Shown here in pieces: positions 2,717 to 57,213 of a stretch of DNA of 57,213 nt (position 1 is the stretch's first letter; each line of letters begins with the position of its first letter). A model generated the notes under the pieces. The model was not told where the DNA came from, ran no database searches, and worked only from the letters and a program-made list of their open reading frames with translations. Position numbers and translations under genes: made by a program. Source of the stretch: a virus; the IMG/VR virus record IMGVR_UViG_3300036828_000780, positions 1 through 57,213 of that record, one strand, 5' to 3'.

Positions 2717-3040
2717 TTACTGCTTGGTCGCGTCATCCGGCAGCAGATCGTCGAGGGCGCGTTTTTCGGCCCGGTCCTTAAACTCGGCAAACACCGCATC
2801 CTCGGTTTGGGCCGCATCGAACCCGTCCTCCCAGGCGGCGTCGTTGCCAGCCTCCAGTAGTCGGGCGACAACCGCCTGCAGGCACTCGATCCCAAAACCG
2901 CGCGGATAGGCCGCCTGCAAATGGTGGACGAGAGCCGCGGTCAGCAGATCGATCTGCTCATCCCAGTCGAGGCGATCCAGCGCCTTGCCGAGCTCGGCGG
3001 TGGCGAGATCCCGGCGGGCGCGTTTGCTCAAGCGCGGCAT
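2717..3040 (-). CDS. Hypothetical protein downstream of integrase
   Basis: 107 residues. The start at 3040 has a good AAGGAG box six to seven bases upstream and overlaps the integrase tail by 13 bases, indicating translational coupling. The sequence is helical, with an Arg/Lys-rich N-terminus (MPRLSKRARRDL) and an acidic middle (WEDGFDAAQTEDAVFAEF). No family is recognised. Its place directly after int is typical of small accessory proteins of the integration module. Confidence 0.6.
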   Translation of the reverse strand: MPRLSKRARRDLATAELGKALDRLDWDEQIDLLTAALVHHLQAAYPRGFGIECLQAVVARLLEAGNDAAWEDGFDAAQTEDAVFAEFKDRAEKRALDDLLPDDATKQ

Positions 3041-4200
3041 GAGGCAACTCCTTTCGCGATGGTGTTCTGCTGCTGTTCCGCGCGGGCGCCTTTGGCGGCC
3101 GCGGCGATCCCCTGGTGGGCGAGCATCTCGCGGTTGATCATCGCCAGGTAGCGGCGCAATTCCTTCGAGCTCTTGTGCCCGGTCACCGCCATCATCGCGT
3201 CCTCGCTGGCGCCGCCGCCGGCGGCCCGCCGGCACCACGCCTTGCGCAGCCCGTGCATCGTCGCTTCCGGCGGCAGGCCGGCGGCGTCGCACCAGGTGCC
3301 GAACGCCGCGCCGAGACCGCCGGGGTGAGAGTACCCTTTGCCGCGATTGCTGATGATGTAAGTCTTGAGCCCGCACACCGAGGCGGCAATGGTGTGCGCC
3401 AGCGCGGGCTCGACCGGGATATGCACGAGGGCCCCGGTCTTTTGTTGGCGCAGTGTCATGATGCCCGCTTTGACCATGCCCGGCCCCATGCGGAAGACGT
3501 CCGAGATGCGCTGCGCGGTGTATAGCGGCAAGGCCATTGCGAGCCGCGCCGTCGAGCCGATCGGGTGGTGCGCCTCGTATTGGGCGACCCAGGCTTCCGG
3601 CCAGGTCTGGTGCCCGTCCTCGCTGTCGTCGTCGGCCGCCTTGGCGGGCGGCTTGTAGCCTTTGAGGCCGGTGGTCGGATCCTCTTTGATCAGCTCGACG
3701 GCGACGGCGTATTGCATCAACCCGCGCAACGCGACGAGCGCGTTGCGCCGGGTCGACGGCAACAACAGATCGAGCCGGGCGATGATGTCGCCGCGCCGCA
3801 GGTCGCTCAGCAGGCGGTGGCCGTCCTGCGCCCGGAACCGTTCGAGGATGCCGCGGCGGGTGCGCTGGGTTCCGTCGGAGAGCGGTTCGAGAAAATATTG
3901 GTTGCTCTGGTAATAGGCGGCGATCGCCGCGCTGATCGTGCCGGCTTTCGAGCGCTTCGCCTCGCCGATCGCGACCGGCTCGACCTTGCGCATCTCGGCG
4001 AGGTAGGCGGTCAGGAACTCGACCGAGTCCGGTTCGCCGGGCAATGCCACCGCCGGGTGTCCGGGCCGGCGAAAGTACCGCCGCACCTTGCCGTGGCGGT
4101 CGGTGAAGCGGTTGACGTGCGGCAGTTCCTTGCCCGCTTGATGGCGGGGTTTATTGACCTTTTGGCTTTCGTTTCCAATAATCATCGGGTACGGGCTCAT
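3028..4200 (-). CDS. int: Tyrosine site-specific integrase
   Basis: 390 residues. The C-terminal catalytic domain carries the expected residues: Arg231 (YTAQRISDV), Lys254 (RQQKTGAL), His316-x-x-Arg319 (MHGLRKAW), His342 (TGHKS) and the nucleophile Tyr351 (ELRRYLA). The N-terminal half contains an arm-binding segment (about 25-60) and a SAM-like core-binding domain (about 85-175). It catalyses integration and excision between attP and a bacterial att site. The start overlaps the small upstream gene by about 50 bases; ATG at 4185 is an alternative. The length is normal for the family. Confidence 0.93.
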   Translation of the reverse strand: MSPYPMIIGNESQKVNKPRHQAGKELPHVNRFTDRHGKVRRYFRRPGHPAVALPGEPDSVEFLTAYLAEMRKVEPVAIGEAKRSKAGTISAAIAAYYQSNQYFLEPLSDGTQRTRRGILERFRAQDGHRLLSDLRRGDIIARLDLLLPSTRRNALVALRGLMQYAVAVELIKEDPTTGLKGYKPPAKAADDDSEDGHQTWPEAWVAQYEAHHPIGSTARLAMALPLYTAQRISDVFRMGPGMVKAGIMTLRQQKTGALVHIPVEPALAHTIAASVCGLKTYIISNRGKGYSHPGGLGAAFGTWCDAAGLPPEATMHGLRKAWCRRAAGGGASEDAMMAVTGHKSSKELRRYLAMINREMLAHQGIAAAAKGARAEQQQNTIAKGVASCRA

Positions 4201-4381
4201 CCCAGGAGTTCGTGACCGGAGCTGGCGTCGCGTCGTTTGCTGCGGGTGACGCCAGTTCCAACTTTATGCGACCATCCGATCCGATTTCCACTCGCGCAAC
4301 TTTGTTGCCGGTCTGCTCGACGGCGCGGATCGCGGCGGCGACGTCGCGTTGGCGGAAGGTTAGACGATCGCGCGCCATCAA
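4151..4381 (-). CDS. Small prophage protein upstream of integrase
   Basis: 76 residues with the pattern MMARDRLTFRQRDVAAAIRA, then VARVEIGSDGRIKLEL. This matches a small uncharacterised protein type that often precedes integrase genes in alphaproteobacterial prophages. It may be a DNA-binding or recombination-directionality protein, but that is a guess from context. It overlaps the integrase start, so the two are co-translated. A tandem TTGAC element lies just upstream. Confidence 0.65.
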   Translation of the reverse strand: MMARDRLTFRQRDVAAAIRAVEQTGNKVARVEIGSDGRIKLELASPAANDATPAPVTNSWDEPVPDDYWKRKPKGQ

Positions 4382-4397
4382 TTGGGCGATCGGCTAG

Positions 4398-4418
4398 TTG
4401 ACGTCAAGTGGCGTCAAT
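4398..4418 (-). promoter_or_regulatory. Tandem TTGAC element before integrase unit
   Basis: On the minus strand ATTGACGCC is followed ten bases later by a second TTGACG. The element overlaps the stop codon of the upstream gene and precedes the start at 4381 by about 17 bases. The same arrangement recurs at 51286 and 52105, always pointing at the downstream gene. Confidence 0.45.
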
Positions 4419-4631
4419 CGCGAAGTCGGGCAGGGCGGCCAGCCGCTGGCGCAGCTGGGAGTGCGCGACCCGCTTGCCATCGAGCAACGCATGGTGCGGG
4501 CCGGCGCGATAGATGCGATGCCCGGCGCGCCGCGCCGCGATGATCATCCGGTGTAATCCCGGGTCCTCGGGGTGCGCGAGGCGGCGTTGTGCCGGGATGA
4601 TCAGCGGGAGCTCAAAGTCGCGGCCTGTCAT
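4404..4631 (-). CDS. Hypothetical small protein after repeat array A
   Basis: 75 residues starting MTGRDFELPL, with a basic helix (HRMIIAARRAGHRIYRA) and a C-terminal LRQRLAALPDF helix. No family is recognised. The start at 4631 lies exactly where the pentamer array ends, and the upstream sequence offers an AGGCGAGG-like ribosome site made of array bases. The same frame stays open through the array, which is a property of the repeat and not evidence of a longer protein. Confidence 0.5.
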   Translation of the reverse strand: MTGRDFELPLIIPAQRRLAHPEDPGLHRMIIAARRAGHRIYRAGPHHALLDGKRVAHSQLRQRLAALPDFAIDAT

Positions 4632-5290
4632 CGGGCTCTGCCTCGCCTGCTTTGCCATGCCCTGCCTTGCCATGCCCTGCCTCGCCGTGCCGAGCCGCGC
4701 CGCGCCCAGCCTGGCCCGGCCAAGCCCGGGAAATTCGCTAAAACCAAATCCTCGCCTCGCCTCGCCTTGCCGCGCCGCGCCCAGCCTCGCCCGGCCAAGC
4801 CAAGCCTGGCGGGGCCTTGCCACGAAATCCGCTAAACCCAAATCCTCGCCTCGCCTCGCCTCGCCCAGCCCTGCCCTGCCCGGCCGCGCCAAGCGCGGCC
4901 CTGCCATGCCTTGCCGGGAAATCCGCAAAAACAAATCCTCGCCTCGCCTCGCCGTGCCTAGCCCCGCCGTGCCGCGCCTGGCCCGGCCACGCCGAGCCTG
5001 GCCGGGCCTGGCCACGCAATCCGCAAAAAACAAATCCTCGCCTTGCCGTGCCACGCCGCGCCGAGCCTTGCCTAGCGACGCCTCGCCCGGGAAAATCCGC
5101 AAAAACCAAATCCTCGCCTCGCCTCGCCTTGCCGCACCCGGCCGCGCCCAGCCCGACCTCGCCCAGCCACGCCCCGCCCCGCCACCAAAACAAATCCTCG
5201 CCTCGCCTCGCCATGCCAGGCCTGGCCGCGCCATTACATGCCGGGCCCCGCCACGCGCGGCCTCGCCGCGCCTCGCCGGGAAACTCCTGT
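4632..5290. repeat. GCCNN pentamer repeat array A
   Basis: 659 bp without a convincing gene. Long runs keep a strict 5-base period (GCC plus two variable bases). They are cut into units by A-rich spacers of the type AAATCCGCTAAAACCAAATCCT, each followed by CTCGCC-TCGCC-TCGCC. AAATCCT occurs at about 4745, 4840, 4933, 5032, 5108 and 5192, so units are 76-99 bp. On the minus strand each unit reads GGCGAGGCGAGGCGAGG, four GG tracts in register, a possible two-tier G-quadruplex. It is not CRISPR: unit length varies and the unit itself is a microsatellite. Confidence 0.85.
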
Positions 5291-5947
5291 TCACGCCGCC
5301 GCCGCGGGTTGCTGCGCGCGCCACAGCTCGACCAGCCGGTCCATTGCGTCGCGAAAATTGGCGTTGTCGTGCGGCCACATGTCCTGTTCGAGGAGCAGCG
5401 CCAGTTGCCGCGCGTAAAAAGTCGCCGGATTGCCGCCATAGTGGCGCATCGCCTCGATCTGGTTGGCCGACAGCCGCTGGCCCTTGAGATGCGCGAGCCC
5501 GCGCTTTAGGGCGATTGCTTGCCCTGTCGGTGCGTGGCCAAATCCGCGGGTGATGTCGTCGATCTTCGGCGGCGGTATGCGCACCAATTCGCTGAGCGAG
5601 ATGCGTTCGTAGCCCAATGCGGTGAGCCGGGCGATGGCGCTGCGCAAATCATACCCGCTGAGCGGCTGGCCGTGGGCTACGTTGAGCCGCACGGCGTCGG
5701 CGAACAGCTCGGCCTCGCTGGCGTAGGTCCGGGTTTCGACCTCGATTGTGTCGATGCTGAGCGTCTCATAGGCGGCGTTGCGGTGCCAGCCGTCGACCAG
5801 GCGCCGGGTGTGCGCCTCGACGACAAGCGGCGGGAAACGCGCGCCTGCATTGTAGGCGTCGATTAGCCGGCCCACTGTAATTGGGTCGAGGTGCGCGCGC
5901 GCCCGCAATGTCTCGTCGCACTGGATGCGATTACGCTTCATCTTCAT
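5291..5947 (-). CDS. ParB-like nuclease-domain protein
   Basis: 218 residues from the ATG at 5947, which has a GGAGG box nine bases upstream. The N-terminal region has the ParB/Srx layout: a short strand, a helix, FPPLVVEAHTRRLVDG and the DGWHR motif (52-56), then a possible HTH-rich middle (residues about 95-160). ParB-domain proteins bind specific DNA sites and use CTP, or act as regulators in phages. No ParA is present. The gene sits between two copies of the same pentamer array, which makes those arrays obvious candidate binding sites. The frame is also open 83 codons upstream through array B, but the SD favours 5947. Confidence 0.8.
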   Translation of the reverse strand: MKMKRNRIQCDETLRARAHLDPITVGRLIDAYNAGARFPPLVVEAHTRRLVDGWHRNAAYETLSIDTIEVETRTYASEAELFADAVRLNVAHGQPLSGYDLRSAIARLTALGYERISLSELVRIPPPKIDDITRGFGHAPTGQAIALKRGLAHLKGQRLSANQIEAMRHYGGNPATFYARQLALLLEQDMWPHDNANFRDAMDRLVELWRAQQPAAAA

Positions 5948-6334
5948 CGCCTGCCTCCAAATCCTCGCCTCGCCTCGCCTCGCCCAGCCTTGCCAGGCCG
6001 TGCCCCGCCGGGCCATGCCCGGCCAAGCCACGCCTGGAATTCCGCTAAACCCAAAGCCTCGCCTCGCCGTGCCTCGCCGGGCCCCGCCTCGGCCCGCCAG
6101 GCCATGCATCGCCACGCCTTGCCCGCGCCTGGCCCTGCCCCGGAAATTCAATAAACTCAAATCCTCGCCTCGCCTCGCCCAACCCAGCCATGCCACGCCT
6201 AACTCCGCCCCGCCGTGCCCTGCCCGGGATCAATAAACTCAAATCCCCGCCTCGCCTCGCCTGGCCTCGCCCCGCCGTGCCGAGCCACGCCCGGCCAGGC
6301 CTAGCCAAAACAAATCCCCGCCTCGCCTTGCGCG
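5948..6334. repeat. GCCNN pentamer repeat array B
   Basis: 387 bp without a gene. It has the same architecture as array A: GCCNN pentamers in runs, separated by A-rich spacers, with unit markers at about 5959, 6053, 6159, 6241 and 6312 (71-106 bp apart). Spacers here drift (AATTCAATAAACTCAAATCC). It lies between the 258-residue gene and the ParB-domain gene, whose SD (GGAGG) replaces part of the last spacer. Confidence 0.85.
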
Positions 6335-32342: not shown

Positions 32343-32729
32343 ATGCGGCGGCGGTTTGTGTTGCGGCTGGACGAGGCCGGGCAATACCGGCTTGTCGAGC
32401 TCGACCTAGCGGCGCCGCGTCGCGCGCCGGGGCCGGTCGCGGCGCCGACGGTGGTGCGCGATATCGCGCCTTATCGGTCGATGCGGACCGGCGAGATTAT
32501 CGGCGGCCGCGCGCAGCACCGGGCGCATTTGCAGCAATACGGCCTCACTGAAGTCGGCAACGAATGGGCCGAGCCCAAGCGCGAGCTCGGCCCGGCGCCC
32601 GGCGAGATCGCCGCCGACATCAAGCGCGAGCTCGCGCGCGATCCCGGCGAGCGCCGCGCGATCGCCGAGCAGGCGCTGCACGAGGCCGGCTATGCCGGCC
32701 CGCGCGTCGACCGGGTGTTAAAGCCGTGA
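32343..32729 (+). CDS. Conserved phage protein (TGEIIGGRAQHR type)
   Basis: 128 residues from the ATG at 32343, which has a strong AGGAGGAG box. It contains RDIAPYRSMRTGEIIGGRAQ, HLQQYGLTEVGNEW and helical C-terminal IKRELARDPGERRAIAEQAL. This small protein type recurs in podophage structural clusters; function unknown. The frame continues upstream to a GTG at 32237 that would add a Cys-rich segment (CRDCGG, CDCCIGG, SCC), a possible zinc domain. Confidence 0.6.
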   Translation: MRRRFVLRLDEAGQYRLVELDLAAPRRAPGPVAAPTVVRDIAPYRSMRTGEIIGGRAQHRAHLQQYGLTEVGNEWAEPKRELGPAPGEIAADIKRELARDPGERRAIAEQALHEAGYAGPRVDRVLKP

Positions 32730-33142: not shown

Positions 33143-33184
33143 GGCGATCGGCATGACGATGCAAAATGCGGTGAGCCAGGTCAT
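33011..33184 (-). CDS. Small membrane protein at end of CtrA-like cassette
   Basis: 57 residues; the ATG overlaps the J-domain gene stop (ATGA). One transmembrane helix (FCIVMPIALAAVLLIP), then a charged tail. The tail is antisense to the end of the rightward gene, which weakens the call. The coupled start favours a real gene. Confidence 0.45.
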   Translation of the reverse strand: MTWLTAFCIVMPIALAAVLLIPQARDFGPRRDELDDLAGQDGRADRDGPHRAPRRAR

Positions 33185-33369
33185 TTGGGGGGTTCCTTCA
33201 AGGCGGCGCGCGCGGCGTTGATCTGCGCCATCAGCTCGGCGCCGCGCGGGTTGCGGTCGGGGTGAAAGCGCTTGACCAGCGCGCAATAGACGGCGCGGTC
33301 GCCGGCGGTGATCGCCGCCGGGTCGACCCCGAGCCGGCGGAACAGCTGCGCCGCCTCGGCCGGGGTCAC
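33181..33369 (-). CDS. Minimal J-domain protein
   Basis: 62 residues from a GTG overlapping the previous stop (GTGA). TPAEAAQLFRRLGVD is followed by YCALVKRFHPDRNP and AELMAQINAARAALK: helix II, the invariant His-Pro-Asp and helix III of a DnaJ J-domain, and little else. J-domains stimulate DnaK ATPase, so this could draw host DnaK to a phage target, as lambda and T-antigen J proteins do. It is co-translated with the CtrA-like regulator through the small membrane protein. Confidence 0.75.
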   Translation of the reverse strand: MTPAEAAQLFRRLGVDPAAITAGDRAVYCALVKRFHPDRNPRGAELMAQINAARAALKEPPK

Positions 33370-33596
33370 CACGGCCACCACCAAAAGATCGCGGCCCAGG
33401 TGGTTCCGATCGCGACGACGATCGCGACCGAGAACCACTGGTACGCCCCGGCTCCTTGTTGATGTCGAGCACCGCGGCGGTAGGGCGCCGCCGGCGCTCC
33501 GCGGTCGGCATAACCCGGCCGAGGCGCCGCCCGTCGGTTAAGGCGGTTGAGTGCCCGGCGCCAAGGGTCGGGATTGCCGTGCGGGGAAGGCATCAT
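33366..33596 (-). CDS. Small C-tail-anchored membrane protein
   Basis: 76 residues. The start overlaps the CtrA-like stop (ATGATG) and the stop overlaps the J-domain start. A basic cytoplasmic part (NPDPWRRALNRLNRRAAPRP) leads to one C-terminal helix (FSVAIVVAIGTTWAAIFWWW). Part of its DNA (33430-33511) matches the start region of the DUF6456 gene but is read in a different frame. Confidence 0.6.
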   Translation of the reverse strand: MMPSPHGNPDPWRRALNRLNRRAAPRPGYADRGAPAAPYRRGARHQQGAGAYQWFSVAIVVAIGTTWAAIFWWWPW

Positions 33597-34339
33597 GGCG
33601 GCGAGGCAGCGAATTCCGGGTGACGGACCGGATTGCGCGGCGGCGGCAACGGAGTTGGCGGGGCGGCCGGTGCGGTCAGGCGGTACCCGCTGCCCCATTC
33701 GGTGACGATGCAGTCGGGGGCGCCGGCGTCGCGCAATTTCTTGCGCAGCTTGCAGACCATGACGTCGAGGATCTTGCCGGCGGGCTCATCGTCGTTGGGG
33801 GCATAAGCGTGCGTTAGATAGTCGTCCTTGCTGACCGGCCGGCCGCGCAGGCGCATCGCCAGCAATTCGAGCAGCTTGTACTCGTTGGGGGCGAGGTGTA
33901 CCGGCCGGCCCGCGACCAAGACGGCGCGCCGCGTCAGGCTGATGACCAGCGGGCCGATGCGGACGACCGATTGCGCGTAGCCGACGCTGCGCCGGATCAC
34001 CGCGTGCAGCCGCGCGACGAGCTCGCCCGGGTCGCACGGCAAGGCCAGGAAATCATCGGCGCCGGTGTTGAGGCTGGCGATTTTCCAGGCGATGTCCTGG
34101 TGCGTCGAGAGGACGATCACCGGGGTCTTGATCTTCGAATTACGCACCCGCCGCAGCCAGGCCAGCGCGTCGCGCGGGACCTGGTCGAGGAGGATGGCGT
34201 CAAACGGCGGCGGCCCTTTGGCGAGCTCGAAGGCGTCATCGGCGTCGGCGGTGGTTTCGCAGGCGAATTCCGCCTCGGCCAGGGGGGTCGTGATCGCGGT
34301 CACGTGCCGCGCGGCGGGGGTGACATACAAAACGCGCAT
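33593..34339 (-). CDS. CtrA-like response regulator with degenerate receiver
   Basis: 248 residues. The C-terminal winged helix follows CtrA closely: LHAVIRRSVGYAQSVVRIG, VHLAPNEYKLLELLAM, DEPAGKILDVMVCKLRKKLR, WGSGYRL. The receiver keeps the phosphoacceptor position (ILLD, Asp52) and GADDF. However, the acidic pocket is lost (YVTPAAR at residues 5-11) and the conserved Lys is replaced (FLALPCD, Leu100). It therefore probably acts without the host phosphorelay. CtrA is the alphaproteobacterial master regulator of replication and division genes. It is the first gene of a leftward four-gene cassette with its own upstream elements. Confidence 0.85.
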   Translation of the reverse strand: MRVLYVTPAARHVTAITTPLAEAEFACETTADADDAFELAKGPPPFDAILLDQVPRDALAWLRRVRNSKIKTPVIVLSTHQDIAWKIASLNTGADDFLALPCDPGELVARLHAVIRRSVGYAQSVVRIGPLVISLTRRAVLVAGRPVHLAPNEYKLLELLAMRLRGRPVSKDDYLTHAYAPNDDEPAGKILDVMVCKLRKKLRDAGAPDCIVTEWGSGYRLTAPAAPPTPLPPPRNPVRHPEFAASPP

Positions 34340-34364
34340 GGGGGTGTGTCCTCGGCACTTTGGT

Positions 34365-34447
34365 TAAGCGCCGACGCAACTGGTCGTTAATCTGCGTCAA
34401 CGCAAGCCTAACAACGCCAAATAGCGCCGACTGCGTCAATTGACACC
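34365..34447 (-). promoter_or_regulatory. Divergent control region of CtrA-like gene
   Basis: Between the regulator (start 34339) and the rightward gene at 34469 lie leftward TTGACGCA at 34402-34395 and at 34440-34433 (the second as GTCAATTGACGC), GCGCCGAC repeats, and TTAA half-sites at 34364 and 34387. No full TTAA-N7-TTAA CtrA box is seen. Confidence 0.45.
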
Positions 34448-34468
34448 AGGCGGCAACCGGAGAGCCCA

Positions 34469-34873
34469 ATGAAAACCGTCGTCATGCGGCGCAGCGACCG
34501 CGAGAAAAAGGACGCGGCCGAGCATTTCGGCGTGCCGGTTACGCCGGAGCCCGAGGATTACCCCTACGGTCTGCGGATCACGCTCGACGACGGTTCGCTC
34601 AAAAAACTCGGCATCAAGCAGATACCCAAGCCGGGCGACAAATTCCGCCTGGAGGCGGTCGCGCACGTCCTGGAGAGCGCCCAGCGCACGACCGAAAAGG
34701 ACAGCGATCGCCGCGTCGAATTGATCCTGCACGAGCTCGGCGCCGAGCCGGCCGGCGGGTTGGGCGACGACGAGGAGAAGGGCAAGACGCTCCGCGAGGA
34801 GCTCGAGGACGCCCGCCACCAGGCGCGCGGCACGACGGCGCCCTCGATTGGCCGCCGCGCGCGCTCTGCCTAA
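34469..34873 (+). CDS. Conserved virion-cluster protein before scaffold
   Basis: 134 residues with GGAGAG before the ATG. The core (YPYGLRITLDDGSLKKLGIK, PGDKFRLEAVAHVLESAQ, DRRVELILHELG) resembles a phage family encoded just upstream of scaffold and capsid genes, related to capsid-stabilising proteins of BPP-1-like podophages. Its exact role is unproven. Confidence 0.6.
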   Translation: MKTVVMRRSDREKKDAAEHFGVPVTPEPEDYPYGLRITLDDGSLKKLGIKQIPKPGDKFRLEAVAHVLESAQRTTEKDSDRRVELILHELGAEPAGGLGDDEEKGKTLREELEDARHQARGTTAPSIGRRARSA

Positions 34874-36253: not shown

Positions 36254-37288
36254 ATGGCCAGTCCAAATCCCAATTGGGGTGAGATCACCACCACAACCTT
36301 GTACAATCGGTCGCGCAAGCTCGCCGACAACGTCACCAAAAACAACGCCTTGCTCGCCCGCCTGTCGACCCGCGGCAAAGTCAAGCCGGTCGATGGCGGT
36401 CAAGCAATCGTGCAAGAGCTCGAATACAGCGAGAACGGCACTTACAAGCGTTATACTGGCTACGACATCCTGAATATTTCGCCGAGCGATGTCTTTACTG
36501 CGGCGCAATACCCGTGGGCGCAGGTCGCGGTCGCGGTGTCGATTTCCGGCTTGGAGGAGATCCAAAATGCCGGCGAAGAGCGGATGATCGATCTGCTCGA
36601 AAGCCGGATCGGCAATGCCGAGCGGACAATGACAAACGGGCTGTCGGGCGACTGCTATTCCGACGGCACGGCCGACGGCGGTAAGCAGATCGCCGGCCTG
36701 CAATTGCTGGTCCCGGATTCAGGCCTCGGCGTGGTCGGCGGCATCGACCGAAGTGCCTGGCCGTTTTGGCGCCCGGCGGTCGGCTCGTTTACTGCGGCTA
36801 CTCTGACGCCAGGCCCGACCACTATTCAAACGATGATGAATAGGCAATGGTTAGCTCAAGCACGCGGCTCGGATCGACCTGACCTAATACTTGCCGACAA
36901 CACTTACTATCGGTTTTATTGGGAAGGCTTGCAGGCGATACAGCGCATCACCGAGAACAACCAGGGCGTCGCCGGCTTTCAGAGCCTTAAATTCATGGAC
37001 GCCGACGTCGTCTATGATGGCGGTTTCCAAGGTGTCCCGGCCGGAACACTGGTCGGCGGTCCGCTCGGCTCCGGAATTACTTGGATGACCCCGGGAGGCG
37101 CGCCGGCATCTCATATGTATTTCTTGAACACCGATTATCTGTTCTTGCGACCACATCGACAACGCAACATGGAGCCGATCGCGCCCGACCGTTTCGCGGT
37201 CAATCAGGACGCGATGGTCAAGCTGATCGCCTGGGCCGGCAACATGACGATGTCGAACGCCTTCCTGCAGGGCGTCCTCATCAACTGA
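36254..37288 (+). CDS. Major capsid protein
   Basis: 344 residues with GAGGAG upstream. Features of an HK97-fold capsid of the podophage type: NWGEITTTTLYNRSRKLADN, KPVDGGQAIVQELEYSENG, YPWAQVAVAVSISGLEEIQN, AERTMTNGLSGDCYSDG, DLILADNTYYRFYWEGLQ and PIAPDRFAVNQDAMVKLIAW. Codon use is less G+C-extreme than in its neighbours, as expected of a highly expressed gene. It is followed immediately by a strong terminator. Confidence 0.88.
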   Translation: MASPNPNWGEITTTTLYNRSRKLADNVTKNNALLARLSTRGKVKPVDGGQAIVQELEYSENGTYKRYTGYDILNISPSDVFTAAQYPWAQVAVAVSISGLEEIQNAGEERMIDLLESRIGNAERTMTNGLSGDCYSDGTADGGKQIAGLQLLVPDSGLGVVGGIDRSAWPFWRPAVGSFTAATLTPGPTTIQTMMNRQWLAQARGSDRPDLILADNTYYRFYWEGLQAIQRITENNQGVAGFQSLKFMDADVVYDGGFQGVPAGTLVGGPLGSGITWMTPGGAPASHMYFLNTDYLFLRPHRQRNMEPIAPDRFAVNQDAMVKLIAWAGNMTMSNAFLQGVLIN

Positions 37289-57078: not shown

Positions 57079-57213
57079 CCGACCCGCCCCCCAAGGACCC
57101 GCCGACGGGTCGCCTGATCCCCGACCTGGTCGGGCGCGTCCTCGGCTACATGGATCGCCCGTGGAAGGCCGTCGCGATCATCGTGGCGGTGGTCCTCGGC
57201 GCAGCCGGCTGGG
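57075..57213 (+). CDS. 5' part of the membrane protein gene (partial, continues at window start)
   Basis: A TTG at 57075 overlaps the lysin stop (TTGA). The frame (TDPPPKDPPTGRLIPDLVGR, then VLGYMDRPWKAV) runs to the window end and continues as the gene at 65-622 once the duplicate ends are joined. Confidence 0.6.
   Translation, partial: MTDPPPKDPPTGRLIPDLVGRVLGYMDRPWKAVAIIVAVVLGAAGW
57086..57213. repeat. Terminal direct repeat, right copy
   Basis: Matches 1-128 except for A at 57203 in place of G at 118. In the reading frame the change is silent or nearly so (third position of an Ala codon). Confidence 0.93.

Follow-up and report, generated by a model that had tools for sequence, protein, structure and literature searches.

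A soil phage encodes a full-length homolog of CtrA, the alphaproteobacterial cell-cycle master regulator, in which the phosphorylation pocket of the receiver has been lost while the dimer face and the DNA recognition helix have been retained. The window analyzed here is the whole of IMG/VR virus record IMGVR_UViG_3300036828_000780, 57,213 nt in length, and its features are collected in Table 1. On balance, we consider it probable that the phage captured a host ctrA as a moron and that the product is a CtrA mimic blind to the host phosphorelay, which most likely dimerizes without phosphate and occupies CtrA sites.

Table 1. Features of the 57,213-nt window, in window coordinates.
Feature	Coordinates	Strand	Detail
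Tyrosine integrase	3028..4200	-	Pfam, 3e-9
Conserved late gene, left border of slot	32343..32729	+	
Small J-domain-like ORF, HPD motif (HPDRNP)	33181..33381	-	Pfam DnaJ 6e-5, 23.5 bits, below the curated cut-off of 27.8
Short ORF, 76 aa, one hydrophobic segment at its end, reading frame uncertain	33366..33596	-	Overlaps the stop of the ctrA-like gene (ATGATG)
CtrA-derived regulator, CDS, 248 aa	33593..34339	-	ATG start
Proline-rich C-terminal tail ending in -SPP	33596..33667	-	
OmpR/PhoB-type winged-helix DNA-binding domain, residues 124-224	33668..33970	-	
Recognition helix KILDVMVCKLRKKL	33734..33775	-	11/14 identical to bacterial consensus
Pseudo-receiver domain, residues 1-118, full (beta-alpha)5 fold predicted	33986..34339	-	AlphaFold
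Alpha4-beta5-alpha5 dimer face, residues 84-118	33986..34090	-	6/6 salt-bridge residues kept
Leu100 replacing the conserved Lys (K101)	34040..34042	-	
Asp52 kept (CtrA D51, the phosphoacceptor)	34184..34186	-	
T7-P8-A9 where CtrA has acidic E7-D8-D9	34313..34321	-	Alignment
Intergenic region upstream of the ctrA-like gene	34340..34468	.	
Conserved late gene (phrog_825), right border of slot	34469..34873	+	
Major capsid protein (phrog_9953)	36254..37288	+	Query for finding sister phages

Descent of the phage regulator from CtrA

The sequence-only reading took this ORF for a CtrA homolog carried by a phage, and profile, genome and tree comparisons all bear this out. Both halves of the protein match Pfam domains above the cut-off (Trans_reg_C, 6e-16; Response_reg, 5e-10), giving the receiver and winged helix of the OmpR/PhoB subfamily. 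The top NCBIfam model is CtrA (NF045991; 2e-53, 181 bits, with the runner-up model at 112 bits), a score far below the 350-bit equivalog cut-off of this model, which is named for Rhodobacterales. In all six alphaproteobacterial whole genomes compared, each with 15-38 matching OmpR-family regions, the chromosomal CtrA came first, at 152-172 bits against 80-120 for the next regulator. As CtrA is both the best NCBIfam model and the best match in the six genomes, chance resemblance is excluded. A 64-row tree likewise places the protein within the CtrA clade (100/99 against other OmpR regulators); grouping with another OmpR/PhoB subfamily, which the sequence-only reading had named as the result that would speak against it, did not occur. 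By these comparisons, the phage regulator is a full-length homolog descended from CtrA. Its branch is long (1.96 changes per site), and its neighbors in the tree (L101 and L106) are distrusted as nearest kin, given the long branches; a single-sequence scan of viral contigs found no close relatives of this exact protein.

Loss of the phosphorylation pocket and retention of the dimer face

The receiver has indeed lost the acidic pair and the conserved Lys and kept Asp52, as had been noticed from the letters alone. CtrA residue numbers follow the Caulobacter CtrA sequence; the conservation counts were all computed on retrieved sequences. Two of the six pocket positions (acidic residues, D51, T/S and K) are kept, Ser78 (CtrA S79) being retained along with Asp52, as compared with 479 of 480 in 80 bacterial CtrAs, in all of which D8, D51 and K101 are invariant. 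The domain does not have the residues of a phospho-competent receiver, and with Asp52 present it is not an Aspartate-less receiver (ALR) either; lacking the acidic pair and Lys under a predicted receiver fold, it is a pseudo-receiver. Judged from these replacements, the pocket should neither bind Mg2+ nor take phosphate. Past the Asp52 loop there is a two-residue deletion, and no segment is less conserved than the alpha1 helix beside the pocket (17% identity to the bacterial consensus, against a bacterial mean of 70%).

The face used for dimerization has fared differently. Identity to the bacterial consensus is 38% in the beta1 loop but 80% in beta5 and 71% in alpha5, and the six salt-bridge residues of the dimer face (K87, D96, D97, E107, R111 and R118 in CtrA numbering) are all in place, as they are in the 80 bacterial CtrAs (480 of 480). 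This set of positions is the one usual for the family, as defined in E. coli PhoP numbering. Overall, identity to the bacterial consensus is 47 of 116 positions in the receiver and, slightly higher, 44 of 91 in the DNA-binding domain.

Modeling of the receiver, which the sequence-only reading had suggested as a check, predicts an intact fold. AlphaFold with 35 sequences returned a two-domain model with a mean pLDDT of 88, the receiver of which fits that of CtrA in the phosphotransferase-receiver crystal structure 4qpj at 2.0 A (TM 0.90, target-normalized). The full-length model superposes best on DNA-bound PmrA and CosR (TM 0.75-0.76), a domain pose that comes from a single chain and is weak evidence.

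The DNA-binding domain

The claim that the recognition region is nearly that of CtrA also stands. The phage recognition helix differs from KIIDVFICKLRKKL of CtrA at three of 14 positions, all of them hydrophobic swaps, and every charged or polar position is kept, as expected of a conserved recognition helix. Around it the domain has changed: in the wing an R is replaced by S (GSGY vs GRGY), the loop preceding the recognition helix carries an insertion with its DEP kept, and helices 1-2 together with this loop have diverged to 44% identity, against a bacterial mean of 93%. From the sequence, the altered wing and the insertion may change DNA affinity or the contact with RNA polymerase.

Such changes raise the possibility of a dominant-negative competitor, which would occupy CtrA boxes or form mixed dimers with host CtrA and, by failing to engage RNA polymerase, silence the CtrA regulon. 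The complete dimer face would permit mixed dimers and the diverged helices and loop would fit, but the DEP is retained, and the loop is conserved in most of the other phage CtrAs; we regard this as a possible but less likely reading. We slightly favor a constitutive occupant, one that locks a part of the CtrA regulon, over a protein that only competes.

At the C-terminus, the tail differs from the Ala found at the end of 59 of 80 bacterial CtrAs. An argument from an Ala-Ala degradation signal was abandoned, as bacterial tails are too variable, just 6 of the 80 having AA at the end.

CtrA boxes and candidate targets

No exact TTAA-N7-TTAA box exists within the window; a single box with one mismatch is present where about one is expected, and TTAA occurs 27 times in total against 40 expected. 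Own-genome CtrA boxes were thus rejected as targets, nothing exceeding chance. Exact boxes were found in 3 of 32 viral records searched, while a phage known to be under host CtrA control carries 12 boxes in one region (PMC9437464). Because the phage genome is without a CtrA box, the main targets of its regulator are probably host promoters.

The protein might alternatively serve the phage itself, acting on its own promoters, for instance to switch lysogeny or to regulate its own expression, by way of half-sites or an altered specificity. Upstream of the gene there are two TTAA half-sites (34364 and 34387), reading TTAAC on the minus strand and 23 bp apart, by which self-control is possible, if weakly indicated, and in roseophages a receiver-less CtrA gene lies between gafA-like and rcc01866-like regulator genes (PMC6363796). 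The lack of a canonical box, the shortage of TTAA and the position of the gene inside the late region all argue against an internal role, which we judge unlikely.

Genomic context and host

A 128-bp terminal direct repeat (1-128 vs 57086-57213, one mismatch) suggests that the record is probably a complete genome, and the tyrosine integrase that the phage is probably temperate. In addition to the integrase and capsid genes, the gene set includes a resolvase, a D5_N-type primase/helicase and a T4-type large terminase. Dense, degenerate GCC-rich short repeats at 4640-6310, around a ParB-like gene (5291-5947), are possibly a partition or binding array. The nearest named-phage matches of the capsid protein are a Bradyrhizobium phage (56%), Stenotrophomonas phage BUCT555 (49%) and Myxococcus phage Mx8 (47%). 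A 75% match lies inside a bacterial genome of the Bradyrhizobium family, as compared with at most 62% in a class-wide sample of genomes, which makes a host near this family likely, though not proven.

The ctrA-like gene runs opposite to the surrounding late operon. In two sister phages (L012 and L017) the slot that it occupies is empty, the flanking late genes being 12-31 bp apart, in other capsid relatives it is filled by different genes, and the ctrA-like gene is absent from the compared DNA of all 80 capsid relatives. Given its orientation and the empty slot in sisters, the gene looks like cargo in a variable late-region slot and is a candidate moron. A consensus search of the upstream intergenic region found no sigma70-like promoter. 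A phage with a 92% identical capsid (L008) has another minus-strand gene in the slot (4312-4749), the 145-aa product of which appears by eye to be a small DNA-binding regulator. Two further capsid relatives (L015 and L016) carry a receiver-less CtrA DNA-binding domain of 112 aa at another genome position (L120:3956-4294 and L121:3956-4294), on the strand opposite to the terminase; since this form sits elsewhere in the genome, CtrA domains seem to have been gained on more than one occasion among related phages.

The short ORF and the J-domain-like ORF trail the ctrA-like gene with overlapping stop and start codons, and the latter may belong to the same cassette. Its position invites the idea that the receiver has been re-tooled for another input, such as a ligand, a redox signal or a protein partner, for example the small J-domain protein next door. 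The retention of Asp52 and Ser78 would suit a re-tooled receiver, and ligand-binding or redox-responsive pseudo-receivers are known (PMC12632262), but the J-domain ORF scores under the Pfam cut-off and no convincing J-domain counterpart was seen beside ctrA among the neighbors inspected in other phages. A J-domain link to ctrA across phages was discarded on the latter ground, and we consider re-tooling distinctly unlikely.

Other phage-borne CtrA homologs

Viral contigs were scanned with patterns from the DNA-binding domain only, so that the conservation of the recognition helix among viral relatives is partly imposed by the scan, and the best 80 of 154 relatives, ranked by similarity to the window protein, were compared. 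Among these 80 there are 28 distinct full-length homologs, 21 of which have a pocket that is no longer intact: five carry E at D51 and five N, others show A, G, I or F there, and further homologs have lost the acidic pair or the Lys. Across the 28, pocket positions are kept in 89 of 168 cases and dimer-face positions in 149 of 168. The five D51E proteins, which carry the phosphomimetic change used in Rhodobacter capsulatus (PMC6363796), fall on two separate branches (L088; L093/L095/L099/L102), and no fewer than four transitions between intact and degenerate pockets are needed on the tree. In four loci (L099, L102, L107 and L108, with E, E, A and N, respectively, at D51), the ctrA-like gene follows VRR-NUC-type nuclease and DNA polymerase genes in a side-by-side replication module spanning around 3400-4850; Pfam matched the neighbors of L107 only (the nuclease just under the cut-off), and those of the other three were judged by eye. 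About 40 more viral loci hold the DNA-binding domain alone or short pieces. Three homologs (L090, L103 and L106) bear a C-terminal extension of 86-102 residues that resembles a further winged helix. Terminase profiles covered only part of the CtrA-bearing contigs and neighbors were inspected for a subset, such that some intact copies could be host genes.

In cultured phages, whole-protein searches yielded for the most part generic OmpR regulators, in records that are metagenomic or seem contaminated, and the DNA-binding domain as query recovered roseophage and Paracoccus phage genes. Two Methylobacterium plasmid CtrAs (L271, NZ_CP099612.1; L272, NZ_CP090584.1) have fully intact pockets, which rules out pocket loss as a trait of every mobile CtrA copy. 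In three prophage records (L159, IMGVR_UViG_2889174819_000001; L160, 3300011699_000034; L161, 3300048631_000675) the host ctrA is cut at residue about 171-173 and its C-terminal part alone remains, with ligA next in L160; the cut is at the same place in all three, which suggests that prophages attach at the 3' part of ctrA.

Pocket loss is, on these alignments, the common state among the full-length phage CtrA homologs found, and the window protein is no lone oddity. This bears on whether it is simply a captured gene decaying without function, for which its long branch, its many receiver substitutions and its absence from sister phages could be taken to speak. The gene, however, retains 248 codons without a stop and codon-position GC (0.69/0.49/0.88) like that of the remaining phage genes, its pocket went while the dimer face and recognition helix stayed, this pattern recurs in many phages, and other phages keep their CtrA homolog at a constant place beside the VRR-NUC-type gene; decay is therefore very unlikely. 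More broadly, alphaproteobacterial phages may have repeatedly captured CtrA and uncoupled it from the phosphorelay by several routes (D51E phosphomimetics, D51N/A, pocket loss and receiver deletion) with pairing and DNA reading kept, forming a common class that overrides the host CtrA regulon, a generalization that we advance tentatively, as nearly an even call.

Proposed role in the host cell

We propose that the phage took up a host ctrA and held it as a moron with its own upstream region. Phosphorylation by CckA-ChpT has probably been lost, since the protein lacks the acidic residues that bind Mg2+, the Lys and much of the alpha1 face. As the dimer face and the recognition helix are kept, the protein, presumably expressed from the prophage, most likely pairs without phosphate and sits on CtrA sites; its targets would be host promoters for motility, pili and the cell cycle, and perhaps its own promoter through the two half-sites. 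The sequence-only reading had CtrA control replication start, division and DNA methylation in hosts; this is the Caulobacter picture, whereas for Alphaproteobacteria as a whole motility and chemotaxis are regarded as the ancestral role (PMC9437464).

Alphaproteobacterial phages under the control of host CtrA are known (PMC9437464), and phage Jorvik depends on it for infection (PMC10589892). With a phage-borne, phosphate-blind CtrA this direction would be turned around: the phage would set the CtrA regulon, to which belong the flagella and pili that serve phages as receptors. When overexpressed in R. capsulatus, D51A CtrA raised gene-transfer-agent activity 2-fold and the wild-type and D51E forms lowered it slightly (PMC6363796), and because of the D51A effect we take it that unphosphorylatable CtrA can have effects of its own. 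The natural D51E, D51N and pocket-less variants are ready-made alleles with which to study roles of CtrA phosphorylation beyond dimerization and DNA binding.

Comparison with known systems

The phage protein shares its domain order, best match, recognition helix and dimer face with chromosomal CtrA (NF045991), but it lacks the pocket, has an eroded alpha1 and a proline-rich tail, and reaches 181 of 350 bits. It also resembles the phosphorylation-free OmpR/PhoB regulators ChxR, HP1043, CosR and GlnR, several of which pair through alpha4-beta5-alpha5, with ChxR, HP1043 and GlnR described as atypical regulators that dimerize independently of phosphate (PMC12632262); those are cellular genes, whereas the window protein derives from a cell-cycle master regulator and is encoded by a phage. 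Like the laboratory D51E and D51A forms of CtrA, it is apparently uncoupled from the phosphorelay, and natural E, A and N replacements at D51 are seen in other phage CtrA homologs; the laboratory forms change the Asp, whereas the window protein keeps it and loses most of the remaining pocket. The GcrA homolog of phage phiCbK (PMC3556154) is another case of a phage with a host cell-cycle regulator, of a different protein family and mechanism. Roseophages RDJL Phi 1, 2 and 6 (PMC6363796) similarly encode a CtrA DNA-binding domain deaf to the CckA-ChpT relay. We found no description of full-length phage CtrAs with pseudo-receivers in a literature search confined to open-licence papers. The roseophage proteins have no receiver, while in the window protein the pseudo-receiver is complete in length and its dimer face intact; the receiver-less form of phage CtrA being already published, we rate the full-length pseudo-receiver form as a new variant.
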